This document shows, piece after piece, positions 41,087-48,515 of a DNA stretch of 64,000 nucleotides (its first letter is position 1; the number at the start of each line of letters is the position of its first letter). The notes under the pieces are model-generated. The model saw only the letters and a list, made by a program, of their open reading frames with translations. It did not search any database and had not been told where the DNA came from. Made by a program: the position numbers and the translations under genes. This stretch comes from Actinophytocola gossypii (GTDB lineage: Bacteria > Actinomycetota > Actinomycetes > Mycobacteriales > Pseudonocardiaceae), in contig NZ_JAFFZE010000014.1 of the NCBI RefSeq assembly GCF_025165815.1, positions 1-64,000 of the forward strand, written 5' to 3'.

Positions 41087-43117
41087 TCATGGTTTGGGTG
41101 CCTGGCGCCAGCCCTCCTCACATCGTTCCGCCAGGCCGGTCAGCTCCAGTTCGGGCAGCAGCGCGCGTACCCGGTCGATGGACACGCCGGAGTCGACCGC
41201 GACCTGTGCGGGGGTGCGCGCCGCGCGGCGGCGGAGGGCCTCGTGGACGCGCAGGGCTTCGGTCCCGAGGCCGTCGGTCCGGCGGGTCGGGCTCTCCGGA
41301 CGGTCGGCCAGGTGCTCACCGACCGGGCTGACGGCTTCGAGGACCTCGGACACCGAGCCGGCGAGGATCGCGCCGCCGGTGCGCAGCAGGTCGTGACAGC
41401 CGGCGGACTGCGCGGAGGTGATCGGTCCAGGCACGGCGAGCACGACCTTGCCCAGCGCGGCGGCGGTGGTCGCGGTGTTGCGCGCACCGCTGCGGATGCC
41501 GGCCTCGACCACGACCGTGCCACTCGACAGCGCGGCGATCAGCCGGTTGCGGACGAGGAAGCGGTAGCGGGCCGGCGGGGTGCCCGGTGGGTACTCGCTG
41601 AGCACCAGACCGCGCGGAGTGATGCGCTTGAGCAGGTCCGCGTGGCCGGCCGGGTAGCCGACGTCGATCCCGCACCCGAGCACGGCGATGGTGACCCCGT
41701 CGGCGGCGAGCGCGCCCCGGTGGGCGGCCCCGTCGATGCCGTACGCGGCCCCGGACACGATCGTCGTGCCGGCAAGAGCCATGGTGTGAGCGAGGTCGGA
41801 GGCGACGAACTCGCCGTACCCGGTCGCCGACCGCGAGCCGACGATGGAGACGGCGCGGTCGACGCTGTCGCCGAGACGTGCCGTGCCCTTCGCCCACAGG
41901 CCGACGGCGGATCCGGCCCAGCGCTGGCCTCGATCGGAGGCGGCGGCGAGGCTGAGCAGGGGCCAGGCCGGCCACTCGTCGTCCTCGGGCACGACGAGCC
42001 GGGCGCCCACTCGTTCGGCGTCGGCGATGTCGCCGGCGGCGAGGTCGAGGTGGCGACGCGCTGCGGTCTCGGCCAGAACCCGCGGCGGAACTTCCGCCGC
42101 ACGTACGGCCGCCTCGGCTTCGATCGGGCCGACCGCGTCGATGAAGGCGACGAGCGCGGGCGCCGGCGGTTCGGCGACCCGCATCAGGTACGCGCGAGCG
42201 AGCCGAAGCGCATCGGGTTTGTGCCGGCGGGTGTCGGTACGCGGGGTTGGCCAGCCGGTTCCGGGTTCTGGAGGGCCGGAGGTGGGATCGGCGCGTTCTC
42301 GTGCGGGCTCGGCTGTTTTCCCCGGTTCGGGAGCGGATGGCGCGGGTTCGGAGCGTTCATCCTCGGAGCGCGCGTCTTCGCGGCGGTCGGGTTGTGGAGG
42401 AGCGGGGTGTGCAGGGTCGGGTTGCGGAGGCTCTCGGTCGGCAAGGTGGTCCTGGGCAGGAGCGGTTCCACTGGTTGGGCCGAGGTGCGGCAGCTTGAGG
42501 TCGGCGCGGCGTGGGCCTTTCCGAGGCTTGCGCGTCGAGCCGCGATCGGTGCCGGTCGACGCGGTGAGGGTGGGAGTGAGCTCGACGTCGGCGGACTCGA
42601 CGTCGGCGGGCTTCCCGCTCCCGGGCGGTACGGCGGTGGGCTCGACCTCGGTGGGCTCGACCTCGGTGGGCTCGACCTCGGTGGGCTCGACCTCGGTGGG
42701 CTCGACGGCGGTGGGTTCCCCGCTCCCGGGCGGTACGGCGGTGGGCTCGACATCGCGAGGCTCCACGGCTCCAGACGGCAGGCCACCAAGCTCGACAACG
42801 TGAGGTTGCACCGTTCCGGCCAGAACGGTGCCGGTCTCCACGGTGCCGCGTCCCATGGAGTCGCGCTTCGCGAGACCGGACTCCGCGACGGCGGGTATGA
42901 GCTCGGCGGGGCTGGGCTCGGCGGAGGTTGAAACGTCGGAACTGGAGCTATCGGAGGTGGGTCCGACGGGACCAGACTCGGCGGAGGTGGGCTTCTCGGT
43001 GGCTGGGGCTGGGGTGACGTGGTCGGTGGTCGGGAGTGGGGTGCGGGTCTTGGTGGCGGTGCACTGCCTGGCCAGTAGACGTTCGACGAGGCTGGGGCTA
43101 GGGCTAGGGCTGGTCAT
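41087..43117 (-). CDS. dprA: DNA-processing protein DprA with a long repeat-bearing N-terminal extension
   Basis: The 676-residue protein has a normal DprA in residues 300-676: a SAM-like region (ALRLARAYLMRVAEPP), the Rossmann-like DNA_processg_A core with VGSRSATGYGE, VSGAAYGIDGAAHRGAL and SGTVVVEAGIRSGARNT, and a C-terminal DML1-like winged helix. DprA loads RecA onto incoming single-stranded DNA. Residues 1-300 are low complexity, rich in Pro, Glu, Ser and Thr, with five VEPTE repeats; ordinary DprA is about 370-400 residues. The ATG at 43117 overlaps the comM stop as ATGA, which supports the long form; internal starts cannot be excluded. Confidence 0.85.
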   Translation of the reverse strand: MTSPSPSPSLVERLLARQCTATKTRTPLPTTDHVTPAPATEKPTSAESGPVGPTSDSSSSDVSTSAEPSPAELIPAVAESGLAKRDSMGRGTVETGTVLAGTVQPHVVELGGLPSGAVEPRDVEPTAVPPGSGEPTAVEPTEVEPTEVEPTEVEPTEVEPTAVPPGSGKPADVESADVELTPTLTASTGTDRGSTRKPRKGPRRADLKLPHLGPTSGTAPAQDHLADREPPQPDPAHPAPPQPDRREDARSEDERSEPAPSAPEPGKTAEPARERADPTSGPPEPGTGWPTPRTDTRRHKPDALRLARAYLMRVAEPPAPALVAFIDAVGPIEAEAAVRAAEVPPRVLAETAARRHLDLAAGDIADAERVGARLVVPEDDEWPAWPLLSLAAASDRGQRWAGSAVGLWAKGTARLGDSVDRAVSIVGSRSATGYGEFVASDLAHTMALAGTTIVSGAAYGIDGAAHRGALAADGVTIAVLGCGIDVGYPAGHADLLKRITPRGLVLSEYPPGTPPARYRFLVRNRLIAALSSGTVVVEAGIRSGARNTATTAAALGKVVLAVPGPITSAQSAGCHDLLRTGGAILAGSVSEVLEAVSPVGEHLADRPESPTRRTDGLGTEALRVHEALRRRAARTPAQVAVDSGVSIDRVRALLPELELTGLAERCEEGWRQAPKP
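42607..42755 (-). repeat. 15-bp tandem repeat nested in a 30-bp repeat within dprA
   Basis: Five 15-bp units (GTGGGCTCGACCTCG on the plus strand, 42636-42710, four identical) encode V-E-P-T-E. They are flanked by two near-identical 30-bp units containing CCGCTCCCGGGCGGTACGG (42607-42636 and 42711-42740) encoding VPPGSG. A further 15-bp relative follows at 42741-42755. In-frame period allows length variation. Confidence 0.88.
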
Positions 43118-44625
43118 ACTGCTCTCCGGTCGCGGAATTCGAGGGCGGCGGCTACGTGGTCGGGGCCTGGACGGTCGGCTTCGGCGAGGTCGCTGAGGGT
43201 CCAGGCGACTCTCAGACATCTGTCGGCGCCTCGGGCGGTGACGGCGCCGATGTCCAGGCCTCGGTCCAGGAGGGCGGTTGTCTTTCTGGGTAAGGCGAAC
43301 TCGCGGCGTAGGGCGGGGCCCGGCGCCTGAGCATTGGTGAGCCAGCCGTGTTGCTGCCAGCGTTCGACGGCTCGGCGGCGGGCCTTGTCGACTCTTGTTC
43401 GGACCTGGGCTGTCGACTCAGGCGTGTCCAGTTCGGCGGACATCGCTGTCATCGGGCGCATTCGGACTCTGAGGTCCACTCGGTCCAGGAGAGGGCCCGA
43501 GAGACGGCCGAAGTACCTGCGTCTGGCGTGCGGGGAGCAGGTGCAGTCGGAGTCCCTCGGCGGGGCGCAGGGGCAGGTGTTGGTCGCCAACACCAGTTGG
43601 AAGTTGGCGGGGTAGCGGGACACGCCGTCCCGCCTCGCCAGGCGGATCTCGCCCTGTTCGAGTGCGGTTCGGAGGGACTCGAGGCGGTGGGGTCCGAACT
43701 CGCAGGCTTCGTCCATGAACAAGATGCCGTGGTGGGCCTGGCTGATCGCGCCTGGTTTGGCCATGCCGGCGCCGCCGCCGATGAGGCCGGAGACCGACGT
43801 CGAGTGGTGTGGGGCGACGAACGGCGCCACCGTGATCAGCGGCGAGTCGGGGGCCAGGGTGCCGGCGATCGACCGGATCGCGGTGACCTCCAGGGCTTGT
43901 TCGTCGGTCAGGGGTGGGAGGAGGCCCGGGAGGCGTTCGGCGAGCATGGTCTTGCCGGTGCCGGGTGGGCCGGTGAGCAGGATGTGATGGCCGCCCGCGG
44001 CGGCGACCTCCAGTGCCCAGCGGGCCTCGGGTTGGCCGATGACGTCGCGGAGGTCCGGGATCTCGGGGGGCGGGTGGACGCGTTCGGGGTCGGGGGTGCG
44101 CAGGGCGGCGTCGTCGCCGCGGAGCCAGGTCAGGGTGTCCAGGAGGGTGCGGGCGCCGAGGATCTCCAGGCCGGTGACCAGCGCTGCCTCGGGCAGTGCG
44201 GGCTCGGGCACGATGGCGCGGCGCAGGCCGGCCTTGCGGGCGGCGAGCAGACCGGGGAGGACGCCCCGGACCGGGCGGACCCGGCCGTCGAGGGCGAGTT
44301 CGCCGATCATGACGGTGCCGGACAGGCGGTCTGTTGGCACGCGGTCCGCGGCGACGAGGACCGCGCAGGCCAGGGCCAGGTCGTAGCCGGAACCGCCCTT
44401 CGGCAGTGCGGCCGGGGACAGTGCCAGGGTGACGAGTTCGCCCGGCCATTCCTCGGAGCTGTTGCGGATGGCGGCTCGGACGCGTTCCTTCGCCTCGTTG
44501 AGGGAGGCGTCGGGAAGGCCGACGATCTGGGTTCTCGGGCGCCCGCCGCCGATGTCGGCTTCGATCTCGACGGCGACGCCGTCCACGCCGAACAGGGCGA
44601 CGGACCAGGCACGAGCGAGTGGCAT
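43114..44625 (-). CDS. comM: YifB/ComM family Mg-chelatase-like AAA+ ATPase
   Basis: The 503-residue protein has an S5-like/Lon-C-like N-terminal domain (ARAWSVALFGVDGVAVEIEA), an AAA+ module with Walker A GPPGTGKTM and ILFMDEACEF as Walker B, and a C-terminal Mg-chelatase helical domain. ComM is a branch-migration helicase that extends heteroduplex during natural transformation. Its stop overlaps dprA (ATGA) and its start overlaps the small proline-rich ORF (TGATG), so the DNA-processing genes are tightly coupled. Confidence 0.93.
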   Translation of the reverse strand: MPLARAWSVALFGVDGVAVEIEADIGGGRPRTQIVGLPDASLNEAKERVRAAIRNSSEEWPGELVTLALSPAALPKGGSGYDLALACAVLVAADRVPTDRLSGTVMIGELALDGRVRPVRGVLPGLLAARKAGLRRAIVPEPALPEAALVTGLEILGARTLLDTLTWLRGDDAALRTPDPERVHPPPEIPDLRDVIGQPEARWALEVAAAGGHHILLTGPPGTGKTMLAERLPGLLPPLTDEQALEVTAIRSIAGTLAPDSPLITVAPFVAPHHSTSVSGLIGGGAGMAKPGAISQAHHGILFMDEACEFGPHRLESLRTALEQGEIRLARRDGVSRYPANFQLVLATNTCPCAPPRDSDCTCSPHARRRYFGRLSGPLLDRVDLRVRMRPMTAMSAELDTPESTAQVRTRVDKARRRAVERWQQHGWLTNAQAPGPALRREFALPRKTTALLDRGLDIGAVTARGADRCLRVAWTLSDLAEADRPGPDHVAAALEFRDRRAV

Positions 44626-44936
44626 CACGCGGCTCCGATCGTGCGATGACGGCCCGGGCTGGGTTCGGGTCGCGACGCGGGGCCCTGGTCGGGAGACGAC
44701 GCGGGCCAGGTGGTCCGCTCGCGCATGACCACGAGGGTCGGGACGGGGATCGGAGATTGTCGGCGGGTTCGTGCTGGGTTTGGTGTGGGTCGTGGGGTCG
44801 GGGTTGAGGACAGGGTCGATGGGGCGCACTGAGCGAGGGCCGGTGCGGGCCGTGCGCGTGTCGGTGAGGGGGGTGTTGGGAGGATCGGAGCGGGGGACGG
44901 CCGGGAGTTCAGCGTGGGCCTCGGTGGCGTGGGCAT
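44625..44936 (-). CDS. Proline-rich ORF bridging yraN and comM
   Basis: The frame of 103 codons begins with an ATG that overlaps the yraN stop as TGATG (44938-44934) and ends with a TGA that overlaps the comM ATG again as TGATG (44627-44623). The product is disordered: Pro, Thr, Ser, Ala and Arg make up most of it (MPTPPRPTLNSRPSPAPILP at the start). No family is recognised. Exact fit on both sides argues for real translation, either to make a small protein or to carry ribosomes from yraN to comM. Confidence 0.6.
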   Translation of the reverse strand: MPTPPRPTLNSRPSPAPILPTPPSPTRARPAPALAQCAPSTLSSTPTPRPTPNPARTRRQSPIPVPTLVVMRERTTWPASSPDQGPASRPEPSPGRHRTIGAA

Positions 44937-45322
44937 CAGAACGCCGCCTTGAAGTGTTGGAGCTTCGGGGGCTCGTTCCGGGGCCACGTGATGGCGATGA
45001 TGTCGAAGCGTTCCGGGCACCATCTGACGTGGTGGTCGGCTCGCCAGCGGCGCGCCAGGCGGCGTATTCGGAGGCCTTTCTCGAAGGTCACGGCCTCGGC
45101 GGGGTGGCCGTAGTTGGTGCTGGTTCTGGTCTTGACCTCGCAGATGATCAGGTTGTGCCTGTCGGTGGCCACCAGGTCCAGCTCACCCTCGGGACACCGC
45201 CAGTTCTTGGACAGCACGATCAGGCCCTGGCGCTCCAGGTACCGGGCGGCCAGGACTTCGCCTTTCGCGCCGGTGCGTAGGTGCGGGGCTGTGGGGGTGG
45301 TGTGGGTCGTCATGGCACTCAC
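44936..45322 (-). CDS. yraN: UPF0102 (YraN family) nuclease-like protein
   Basis: The 128-residue protein has the restriction-endonuclease-like fold of UPF0102: GAKGEVLAARYLERQGLIVL, then the putative metal site in CPEGELDLVA and IICEVKTRT. A role in DNA repair or recombination is suspected but unproven. GTG at 45322 and ATG at 45313 are both possible starts. It heads the yraN-prp-comM-dprA set, with two DnaA boxes in the 128-base upstream gap. Confidence 0.9.
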   Translation of the reverse strand: MSAMTTHTTPTAPHLRTGAKGEVLAARYLERQGLIVLSKNWRCPEGELDLVATDRHNLIICEVKTRTSTNYGHPAEAVTFEKGLRIRRLARRWRADHHVRWCPERFDIIAITWPRNEPPKLQHFKAAF

Positions 45323-45365
45323 CGTCCCGGTTCATGGGGACGGGGGCCATGGGGGTGCGCTCAGC

Positions 45366-45403
45366 TGTGGACAACCCGGGGGGTTGGCGGCGGCTGTGGA
45401 TAG
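45366..45403 (-). promoter_or_regulatory. Pair of DnaA boxes upstream of yraN-comM-dprA
   Basis: On the minus strand TTGTCCACA (45366-45374) is the exact actinobacterial DnaA-box consensus, and CTATCCACA (45395-45403) is a one-base variant 29 bases away. Both lie in the same orientation 44-81 bases upstream of the yraN start, in non-coding DNA. A CCGTCCC/GGGACGG hairpin at 45322-45343 lies between them and the start. Confidence 0.55.
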
Positions 45404-45450
45404 CCGGGGTGGGATGGGACGGTGGGTGTGGTAGCGGGCGCTGCCAGCGG

Positions 45451-45774
45451 TCAGGTGCCGAAGGGGCCTTCTTCTGGCAGGCGGAGCTCGGGCTTGTCCA
45501 GCTCCTCCACGTTGACGTCCTTGAACGTGATCACTCGGACGTTCTTCACGAACCGGGCGGGGCGGTACATGTCCCACACCCACGCGTCGGACATCCGCAC
45601 CTCGAAGTAGACCTCACCGTCGGAGTCGCGTACCTGCACGTCGACCCCGTTGGCCAGGTAGAACCGCCGTTCCGTCTCCACCACGTAGGAGAACTGGCTG
45701 ACGATGTCGCGATACTCCCGGTAGAGCTGCAGCTCCATCTCGGTCTCGTACTTCTCGAGATCCTCCGCGCTCAT
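45451..45774 (-). CDS. DUF2469 domain protein
   Basis: The 107-residue protein belongs to the actinobacterial DUF2469 family (mycobacterial Rv2901c), with a strongly acidic amphipathic N-terminal helix ([20 protein letters not shown]) and a beta-rich remainder. Function unknown. The ATG overlaps the rnhB stop as ATGA, the same coupling as in mycobacteria. Confidence 0.9.
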
Positions 45775-46553
45775 GCGGTTTCGCGCTCCTCCTGCTCGAC
45801 TGGTGTCGACCTCCCATTCTGAACCACGGCGGCCGCCGCCACACTCAAGGCCACCGGGTGTGGCGCGCGCATCCCGTGGGCCAGGCCCGCCGCGGCCACG
45901 TTCACGTACGACCAGCGGTGCGCGTGGCTGGGGCCGTGAGCCGCCAACGCCGCGCTGTGCGCCCCCGTGCAGTAGCCCTTGTGCTCGTCGAAGCCGTACG
46001 CCGGCAGCGACTCGTGGAGCTCGGCCATGATGCGGTCACGGGTCACCTTGGCCAGCACGGACGCCGCCGCCACACACGCCACGGCCTGGTCGCCCTTGAC
46101 CACCGGCATGCTCGGTGCGGTGAGCCCCGGCACCCGGAAACCGTCGATCAGCACGTATCCAGGATGCGTCCGGAGGCGCGCGATCGCGCGGCGCATGCCC
46201 TCGATGTTCGACACGTGTACCCCGATCAGGTCGACTTCCTCCACCGGGACGATCACCACGGAGTAGTCGAGGGCGCGCTTGCGCACGAGGTCGAACATGC
46301 GGTCGCGGGCGGCCGCGGTCAGCAGCTTCGAGTCGGTCAGGCCCTCGAAGCGGGCCGCGTCGCCGGGGCGGAGCACGCACGAGGCGACCACGAGCGGACC
46401 GGCGCACGCGCCTCGGCCCGCCTCGTCCACGCCGGCGACCGGGCCGAGGCCGCGGCGGTCGAGGGCGGCCTGCAACGCCCAGTTGCCGGAGTCCCGCCGC
46501 ATGATCGCCCGCGGGGGGCGGGACTCCAGCCAGTCGAGATGGGCCCGGGTCAC
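45771..46553 (-). CDS. rnhB: Ribonuclease HII
   Basis: The 260-residue enzyme cleaves RNA in RNA/DNA hybrids and single ribonucleotides in DNA. The active-site acidic residues lie in [13 protein letters not shown], and further on in [11 protein letters not shown] and [24 protein letters not shown] start at 46553 overlaps the first lepB stop as GTGA. A ~35-residue N-terminal extension precedes the catalytic fold. Confidence 0.95.
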
Positions 46554-47485
46554 TGCTTGTCTCCCGATCCCGGAGATTCACTCGATCGGATGGACTTTAC
46601 GGTGTTGCGGACCCGGCGGCCGAGCCAGAGGGTCGGCCAGGCGGCGACGAGACCGACGCCGAGCGGCAGGCTGGACGGCAGAACGAAGGACAGGGCGACG
46701 TTGTCGACCTGCGGGTCGTGGTCGCCGACGCCCTGCCAGCGCGACGGCGGCAGCACGATGTACCGCGCCTTGCCGATCACGTTGTCCACCGGCACCAGGC
46801 CGTTGCGGCCACCGCCGCCCTGGCAGCGGGAGTCACACGAGTTGTTCCGGTTGTCGCCGAGCACCCACAGGTAGCCGTCCGGCACGTTGATCGGCGGGAA
46901 CTGTTCCTGCTCCCCCGACCCTGGCGCCCAGTAGATGTACGGCTCGTCCAGTGGCCGGCCGTCGACCAGCACCCGGTTCTGCTCGTCGCAGCACTCCACG
47001 GTCTGGCCACCGACGGCCACGACGCGCTTCACGACGTCGTCCTCGTCGGGTGAGGCGAGGCCGAACGCGGCGCCGATGTCCTGCAGCCAGGAGACGAACG
47101 CGTTGCTGGAGCGCTCGGACCTGAACTCGGACTGGTTCCAGGTGTCCGGCCGCTCGAACACCACGACCTCGCCCGGCTCCGGCTCGCCGAAGTTGAAGAC
47201 CAGTTTGTCGACCAGCACGCGGTCGCCGTAGCAGCCGGCGCAGCCGTGCAGCGTCTGCTCCATCGACTCGGACGGGATCACGAAGACCCGGGCCAGGAAG
47301 GTCTGGATGAGCAGCGCCAGCAGGAGCGCGACCCCGATGAGGATCGGCAGCTCCTTCCAAAAGGATCGCTGCTTCTTCTTGCGCCGGTTCTTGCGTCCGA
47401 GGGTCTCTTCGCGATCCGGCTCCGGCCGGTCGTCCCCCTCGTCCTCGTTGTCCCTGTTGTTTCCGGAGTGTGCGACGTCTGCCAC
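46550..47485 (-). CDS. lepB: Signal peptidase I (first of two tandem copies)
   Basis: The 311-residue membrane protease removes Sec signal peptides. A basic cytosolic N-terminus precedes one helix ([20 protein letters not shown]), then the catalytic S74 in PSESM and K153 in [10 protein letters not shown]. The C-terminal [11 protein letters not shown] box is present and a second hydrophobic helix closes the protein. Extra cysteine pairs (GCAGC, ECC, CDSRC) occur in both tandem copies. It lies 13 bases after the second lepB gene. Confidence 0.94.
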
Positions 47486-47498
47486 TTGTGCAGGGTAC

Positions 47499-48515
47499 CT
47501 AGGAGGAAGGGTCGGACCGGCGGGGTGGGCGGACCACCCAGCGCAGGCGGCGAGTCAGCCACAACGCCGGCCACGCGGCCACCAGACCGACGGTCGCGGG
47601 CAGGCCGGCCTGCCACGCCGGGGCGCCCATCGCCATCGGGATGCCGGCCTGCGGGTTGTGATCGCCGACCCCGCGCCAGCGGGACGGCGGCAGCACGATG
47701 TACCGCGCCTTGCCGATCACGTTGTCCAGCGGAACCACACCCCGAATGCCGCCGCCACCCTGGCAGCGGGAGTCGCACGAGTCGCTGCGGTTGTCCCCCA
47801 TCACCCACAGGGTGCCCTCGGGGACCAGGACCGGCTCGAACCGCTGCTGGGCGTCCGGTTCGCCGTTCTGCCAATAGATGTACGGCTCGTCGAGCGGCCG
47901 GCCGTCGACCAGGACCCGCCACTGGTCGTCGCAGCACTGGACGGTCTGGCCGCCGACCGCGATCACCCGCTTGACGAAGTCGCGCTCGTCCGGGGGCGCC
48001 AGGCCGACCAGGGCGCCGATCTGGCGCAGGGCGTCGACCACGACGTTGTCGGACTCGGGCTCGGCGACGTCGTTCTCCGTCCACGCGTCGGGGCCCTTGA
48101 AGACGACGACGTCGCCGGGTTCCGGGTCGCCGAACGTGTAGACGAGCTTGTCGACGAGGACGCGGTCGCCCGTGCAGCCGGGGCAGCCGTGCAGCGTCTT
48201 CTCCATGGAGCCGGACGGGATGGAGTAGACGCGACCGATGAACTGCTGGATCAGGAAGGTGAGCAGTACCGCCACCGCGACCAGGGTCAGCAGCTCACGC
48301 CACAGCGGCTGCTTCTTCGGGGGGCGGCGGTGCCGGCCACGGCGTTTCGACCGGCGGGTGTCGTCGGTTGGCGCGTCGGCCGGTTCGTCGGCGGGCGACT
48401 CCCCTGGTGCCGGGCGATCGGAGTGGTCGGCGGGGTCGTTCCCGCCGACCGTCGGGATCTGCTCGGTGCGGTCCGGGTCATCCTCAGGCGATTGAGCATG
48501 CACAGGGGTGACCAC
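47499..48515 (-). CDS. lepB: Signal peptidase I (second tandem copy)
   Basis: The 338-residue paralogue has a longer acidic N-terminus (about 70 residues), one transmembrane helix, S103 in PSGSM and K182 in VKRVIAVGG, and the same cysteine pairs and a C-terminal helix. Both copies keep the Ser/Lys dyad, so both should be active. Compared with mycobacteria, which have a single lepB here, this is a tandem duplication. It lies 39 bases downstream of rplS. Confidence 0.94.
   Translation of the reverse strand: MVTPVHAQSPEDDPDRTEQIPTVGGNDPADHSDRPAPGESPADEPADAPTDDTRRSKRRGRHRRPPKKQPLWRELLTLVAVAVLLTFLIQQFIGRVYSIPSGSMEKTLHGCPGCTGDRVLVDKLVYTFGDPEPGDVVVFKGPDAWTENDVAEPESDNVVVDALRQIGALVGLAPPDERDFVKRVIAVGGQTVQCCDDQWRVLVDGRPLDEPYIYWQNGEPDAQQRFEPVLVPEGTLWVMGDNRSDSCDSRCQGGGGIRGVVPLDNVIGKARYIVLPPSRWRGVGDHNPQAGIPMAMGAPAWQAGLPATVGLVAAWPALWLTRRLRWVVRPPRRSDPSS

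Follow-up and report, generated by a model that had tools for sequence, protein, structure and literature searches.

The 103-codon open reading frame situated between yraN and comM in a 64,000-nt stretch of Actinophytocola gossypii DNA (hereafter the window) is probably a translated "ribosome bridge" rather than a new functional protein. The frame is located on the minus strand (44936..44625) and, as described in the earlier note, shares a TGATG with the yraN stop codon and a second TGATG with the comM start codon. Counting both strands, the 64 kb window contains 105 TGATG sites, and those at the ends of the spacer are the sole pair between which a frame stays open for 20 or more codons. The features of the locus are as follows.

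44625..44936, minus strand: spacer ORF P0001, putative bridge, 103 codons plus TGA, 312 nt
44934..44938, minus strand: TGATG in which the yraN stop (TGA, 44938-44936) overlaps the spacer ORF start (ATG, 44936-44934)
44623..44627, minus strand: TGATG in which the spacer ORF stop (TGA, 44627-44625) overlaps the comM start (ATG, 44625-44623)
44936..45313, minus strand: yraN (UPF0102), 125 aa, Pfam PF02021 with E 2e-26
43114..44625, minus strand: comM (Mg-chelatase ChlI-like ATPase), 503 aa, Pfam PF01078, PF13541, and PF13335
44944..44950, minus strand: Shine-Dalgarno-like AAGGCGG ahead of the spacer ORF, within the yraN 3' end, duplex -6.7 kcal/mol
44633..44636, minus strand: Shine-Dalgarno-like GGAG ahead of comM, within the spacer ORF 3' end, duplex -5.8 kcal/mol

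The comM start was set by alignment, residue 1 being aligned in most relatives. An N-terminal extension of comM through its open frame (571-aa ORF) is disfavoured and was discarded, since in most relatives the alignment begins with the M at 44625. Further neighbours are presumably a DUF2469-like gene, rnhB, and lepB. Upstream of rnhB (minus strand, 46550-48515) two successive signal-peptidase-like genes were observed, which we take to be lepB-like.

Coding properties of the spacer frame

The properties of the frame do not support a mature or functional protein gene. Its GC contents at the three codon positions are 0.66, 0.79, and 0.73, i.e., GC3 is lower than GC2, a noncoding-like rather than gene-like pattern, and GC3 ranges from 0.855 to 0.917 in the five neighbouring genes (yraN, comM, the DUF2469-like gene, rnhB, and lepB). 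The proline richness stressed in the earlier note is not a distinctive trait, since the 28 prolines of the spacer frame match shuffled sequence of the same composition (mean 26.1, sd 3.2); the other two frames contain 26 and 20. The spacer protein matches no Pfam family. Among the six genomes of the genus (best 150 of up to 202 candidates per genome scored), nothing credible was retrieved besides the spacer protein itself. The best match in a congener (E 0.010, 34% identity) contains an internal stop and is situated away from the yraN/comM junction. The orthologue by which a conserved small-protein gene would be recognised was not found in the five congeners, and in three of these the frame is missing and yraN and comM overlap directly, which, with regard to a conserved protein, is the outcome named as refuting in the earlier note.

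The new small disordered component considered in the earlier note is thus not supported, given the absence of a credible genus homologue and the noncoding-like codon positions. In this reading, the 103-aa proline-rich product would act as a partner of YraN, ComM or DprA. Even the inserts of the same clade (L003 and L005) align with the window insert just at a z of about 2. Such a product would be made if the bridge works, and the last 61-62 codons of three inserts of another lineage (L274-L276) look as if under purifying selection, but we regard a genuine small protein as quite improbable.

Inserts and bridging frames at the yraN/comM junction

Within the genus Actinophytocola (six genomes), yraN and comM overlap directly in TGATG in G001, G002, and G003, and inserts of 310 bp, 112 bp, and 85 bp are present in the window, G004, and G005, respectively. 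In a tree of YraN and ComM pieces, drawn open, the three insert-bearing genomes are placed together (support 81/87) with G003 as their sister (86/87). Since they group together, a single insertion followed by strong divergence in this clade is plausible but not proven.

Direct overlap is the usual state in the family as well. Family loci were taken from the best 150 of the 215 genomes with a yraN match, among 220 searched. The junction lies at -6 to +2 nt without an insert in 139 of these 150, and 11 carry inserts; the -6 value of L041 is an alignment artefact, the other measurement giving -1. Further loci came from genus searches. Ten extra regions, eight of them for a gap in the table coordinates (two were already included), were chosen before the frames of the new ones were inspected, and for genus g16 75 genomes were searched and about half parsed. 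From the resulting 302 loci, 23 were left out (L001 and L008-L029: other regions, duplicates, and other organisms) and L286 was dropped for its lack of yraN. The remaining 278 loci represent 202 unique junctions, 181 at -4 to +2 and 21 with inserts of 82-1321 bp. Due to the gap-based selection of some regions, the proportion of 21 in 202 is biased as a frequency estimate; the 11 of 150 were not gap-selected. TGATG (-1) is the commonest direct junction (93/202). In several g16 genomes (G238, G226, G241, G261, G282, G271, G269, and G141) a second comM-like gene occurs elsewhere. The match in G241, G261, and G282 begins at query residue 82, which lies in YraN, and continues across a TGA into ComM, as would be expected of another yraN-comM pair.

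A start codon at the yraN stop is kept in 16 of the 21 inserts, and 15 of these 16 reach the comM start by one or more open frames. A junction was counted as bridged if an ATG or GTG is situated between -2 and +7 relative to the yraN stop, any restart falls into the same range, and the final stop lies at -8 to +12 of the comM start. Twelve bridges consist of a single frame of 27-372 codons that terminates 2 or 4 nt ahead of the comM ATG, with the following numbers of codons: L002 (window) 103, L005 28, L032 130, L047 193, L130 116, L171 47, L176 31, L274 335, L275 184, L276 372, L277 27, and L279 227. Two further inserts are crossed by two ORFs via an internal TGATG, with 86 and then 53 (GTG) or 52 (ATG) codons in L127, and 31 and then 98 codons in L278. 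The bridge of L003 comprises 40 codons and ends 7 nt within comM, the start of which has the sequence TCATG at this locus. The sixteenth insert, L075, has stops throughout and is unbridged.

Compared to dinucleotide shuffles of random length modulo 3 with fixed ends, which predict 3.06 bridged inserts, the 15 of 16 observed correspond to P 6e-12 if the inserts were independent; inserts of one genus are not independent of each other. With related inserts merged to nine presumed events, a judgement from genus and similarity and not from a full tree, eight of nine are bridged and 1.9 are expected (P 4e-6). In this merging, L047 was joined to L274-L276 despite the lack of detectable shared sequence, and the bridge probability of L075 was entered as 0.0005 (simulated value 0.000). 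The 15 native bridges decrease to 4 upon inversion of the insert interior, to 4 upon deletion of one base, and to 1 upon deletion of two. No internal stop occurs in the bridging frame of the bridged ORFs, and 28 and 11 occur in the other two frames.

The earlier note had considered two precise overlaps unlikely by chance. For the window insert alone this does not hold, since its shuffled versions bridge in 19% of the trials with one ORF and in 28% if chains are allowed; the significance of the bridge derives from the inserts of the relatives. Long open frames are common in high-GC genomes, and an intergenic insert that drifts without being translated would be in agreement with this shuffling result and with the other frames of the window stretch (+2 is also open, +1 has one stop). 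The excess of bridged inserts over expectation, also among merged events, and the loss of most bridges upon inversion or deletion of one or two bases are at odds with it, and chance is an unlikely explanation. The alternative offered in the earlier note, a ribosome-carrying spacer, is strengthened by the search for a kept frame that it had proposed: 15 of 16 comparable inserts, recurrent and mostly unalignable in sequence, have retained a frame that connects the yraN stop with the comM start.

The following course of events may be envisaged for the ribosome bridge. Ancestrally, yraN and comM would have overlapped in one TGATG, allowing ribosomes that terminate on yraN to resume at comM. Within the ancestry of the present Actinophytocola lineage, this junction would then have received additional DNA, the most likely mechanism being a tandem duplication around the overlap with subsequent drift and in-frame growth or loss. 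Selection would have purged inserts that break the relay and kept frames opening at the first TGATG and closing at the second, and termination-reinitiation would now occur twice, from yraN to the spacer and from the spacer to comM. From the junction sequences we infer that the spacer may actually be translated and that comM may depend on it. As recurrent inserts usually form an unbroken frame, the comparison suggests that linked translation of yraN and comM is worth preserving.

Except for L075, all unbridged inserts (6 of 21) belong to genus g17. The five g17 inserts (L172, L173, L234, L235, and L237; 346-650 bp, C 0.53-0.59, G 0.12-0.25) lack the yraN/comM overlap, are unbridged, and have neither ATG nor GTG at the yraN stop; comM is preceded by a GGAG site. 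This genus seems to represent a naturally decoupled state in which coupling would be dispensable, and its unbridged junctions indicate that the relay can be abandoned. Anti-Shine-Dalgarno pairing before comM has a median of -8.4 kcal/mol for bridged (n=15) and -7.1 kcal/mol for overlapping junctions (n=181), compared to a background of -2.8 kcal/mol inside comM (n=1005); before the spacer starts it amounts to -6.7 kcal/mol (n=15). In g17 (n=5) the values are -5.9 in four genomes and -7.5 in one. The comM site of the window (-5.8) is close to the former, so that by pairing the window is indistinguishable from the unbridged state, and its comM might start independently from the GGAG site.

In case of L075/L288 (G069), a comM-like 5' fragment adjoins yraN, and about 1.3 kb of sequence rich in stops separates it from comM. 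The comM of G069 is 79% identical to that of the window over the query, and values of 61-71% were obtained for six of seven other genomes of its genus (G132: 78%). This junction has the appearance of an insertion at comM or a replacement of it.

A regulatory leader, i.e., a C-rich, G-poor, and proline-rich spacer which tunes comM and dprA, e.g., by Rho loading or ribosome slowing, would be compatible with a bridge and not exclusive of it. The base composition of the window insert (C 0.50, G 0.23) and the C excess of L032, L274, L275, and all five unbridged g17 inserts point in this direction. However, L127, L277, and L278 show no C excess and L279 a slight one, no Rfam match was found in window positions 44300-45500, and the proline runs are short, with two PP pairs in the spacer product. 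This reading is accordingly a very improbable one. A common explanation of the inserts by C-richness or Rho sites was not retained, as a clear C-richness is missing from several of the bridged ones.

Origin of the inserts and possible selection on their frames

Remnants of the flanking genes are visible in some inserts. L127 contains two comM 5' copies (93% over 59 bp and 84% over 73 bp), L278 an 88-bp repeat spanning the TGATG (93%), and L075 a comM-like 5' copy at its start. The ends of L274-L276 represent a decayed YraN C-terminus (E 3e-11, 5e-5, and 3e-9 in pairwise blastp with no composition correction). A genus search with this end gave matches in 17 of 80 genomes, including the three inserts: the yraN genes of G227, G280, G276, and G213 match with E 2e-6 to 3e-5, and weak matches in 13 further genomes (E 0.002-0.01) are mostly located at yraN coordinates. 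Codon-shuffle tests of both ends of 16 inserts were weak for most, with p < 0.05 for the 5' ends of L075, L130, and L279 and the 3' ends of L003 and L276. In the window insert, this test of its ends detected no relic of either yraN or comM (3' p 0.49, 5' p 0.92), and its origin by tandem duplication is therefore suggested by analogy with the relatives. A duplication of this kind across the junction would supply a comM-derived start, a yraN-derived stop, and two TGATGs. Between inserts of different genera, the sole sequence match is a C-rich one of L234 with L275 (70% over 108 bp, E 2e-6).

Frames are kept through considerable changes in length. L032 and L176 (391 and 94 bp) share their ends (83% over 71 bp and 96% over 23 bp) and differ in length by 297 bp. 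L274, L275, and L276 (1010, 557, and 1121 bp) have a common 3' part with 70-81% DNA identity; L274 differs from L275 and L276 by 453 and 111 bp, respectively, and the bridging frame is kept. The bridging ORF of L274 contains in-frame tandem repeats of an 18-residue unit.

The dN/dS check proposed in the earlier note gave a purifying-like signal, albeit in inserts of another lineage than that of the window. For the last 61-62 codons of L274-L276, values of 0.24, 0.25, and 0.39 were obtained in the bridging frame, compared to 1.65 and 2.02, 1.6 and 0.34, and 0.94 and 1.37 in the shifted frames; yraN and comM of the same loci yielded 0.17-0.27 and 0.03-0.07, respectively. In both pairs with L276 the alignment is uncertain, since dS of the shared end (1.29 and 0.99) exceeds that of yraN (0.37 and 0.49). 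For L032/L176 the value was about 0.5 (31 codons), and for comparisons with L047, which shares no detectable sequence with L274-L276, it was 0.5-0.7. In at least one lineage, most clearly in L274/L275, selection thus appears to act on the encoded residues, which argues for translation there.

It is tempting to speculate that stop-start overlaps are nurseries for new genes, in which a duplicated frame is kept open by coupling, drifts, grows, and may gain constraint, although this reading is tentative and we lean slightly against it. Tandem duplication across a TGATG would create a middle frame with its start from the downstream gene and its stop from the upstream gene; selection for coupling would keep this frame translated in the long term, in-frame repeats would lengthen it, and some frames would eventually gain constraint at the protein level. 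The frames of L274-L276 comprise 184-372 codons with a common end of about 61 codons.

If the ribosome bridge is correct, repeated natural insertions provide comparative evidence that coupling between two operon genes is under selection, as most inserts with a start at the first stop would also let a ribosome walk across. They would furthermore outline a concrete route by which bacterial orphan frames are born already translated. Caution is advisable with species-specific small ORFs that overlap their neighbours at both ends, since these may be spacers and not functional proteins.

Other families and known systems

In a class-wide sample, 74 genomes were searched, 72 had a match, and 36 junction loci were parsed, 29 by match score and 7 for suspected gaps. 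Inserts of about 50-76 bp occur in three of the 36 loci, which belong to other families. All three are bridged, by 25 codons in L354 (GTGA and ATGA overlaps), 16 in L355, and 24 in L358, as read with several permitted start codons and at lengths for which bridges arise by chance in about 0.3 of the trials. Table coordinates had also pointed to gaps in G312 and G331, but these are explained by a -1 overlap and an ambiguous start site, respectively. The junction insert of L354 (G372) contains the motif GAGCGCAGCGAGC / GAGCGCAGCGAGCGAACC. We presume that GAGCGCAGCGAGC is repeat-like and that GAGCGCAGCGAGCGAACC resembles a dispersed actinobacterial repeat. L354 is possibly a MIRU-like bridging insertion in another family; its motif has no match in the window.

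For the window itself, a MIRU-like mobile repeat, i.e., a short element inserting at coupled start codons with its own bridging ORF, has to be considered. L354, at a distant junction, with its presumably repeat-like motif, would fit this explanation. Architecture and effect would be as in MIRUs, repetitive mycobacterial units which insert at start codons and whose own ORF becomes coupled to the downstream gene with a spacing of -4 nt; according to the text available of the review PMC12548453, expression of that gene is probably little affected. As in MIRUs, the ORF of the window insert overlaps the downstream start codon, here with TGATG at both ends, and coupling can be kept. Several findings disagree with a mobile repeat. 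In a six-frame search of the own genome at the protein level, no second copy of the spacer ORF was found among the best 150 of 159 candidates, the best other match having E 0.039 and 31% identity. MIRUs are short, repetitive, and apparently mobile, whereas the yraN/comM inserts vary in sequence and length (82-1121 bp in the 15 bridged ones), are unrelated between genera apart from the C-rich match mentioned above, and in part reveal an origin from the flanking genes. The spacing of MIRUs is -4 nt, whereas that of the window is -1 (TGATG) and that of most yraN/comM junctions -1, with some at +1. Together with the absence of the L354 motif from the window, this makes a MIRU-like element very improbable.

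In the open-access literature searched, no account was found of yraN/comM inserts or of junction duplications which make bridging ORFs. Regarding the distance that coupling tolerates, studies disagree according to the same review (PMC12548453), and in native pairs of E. coli and Haloferax reinitiation is reported to be nearly lost with stop and start tens of nt apart (PMC10666635, as far as its available text goes).

At the window junction, stop and start codons overlap as in termination-reinitiation coupled pairs. As far as these are covered by the available text of PMC10666635 and PMC6728339, pairs with TGATG or ATGA correspond to both ends of the spacer, but differ in that the middle ORF here lacks a conserved product and seems to exist to join the two overlaps. 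Short ORFs whose only role may be ribosome delivery are mentioned in the accessible part of PMC12548453. Upstream ORFs and bicistronic designs, as treated there, likewise rely on a short ORF that is translated to hand the ribosome to the next gene, but the spacer is part of an operon, where its own translation would rely on coupling to the preceding gene. Judged by its sequence, the window case would work like a MIRU but deviates in its non-repetitive nature and its spacing other than -4, and is best regarded as a putative coupling-preserving inserted ORF of a non-repeat type.
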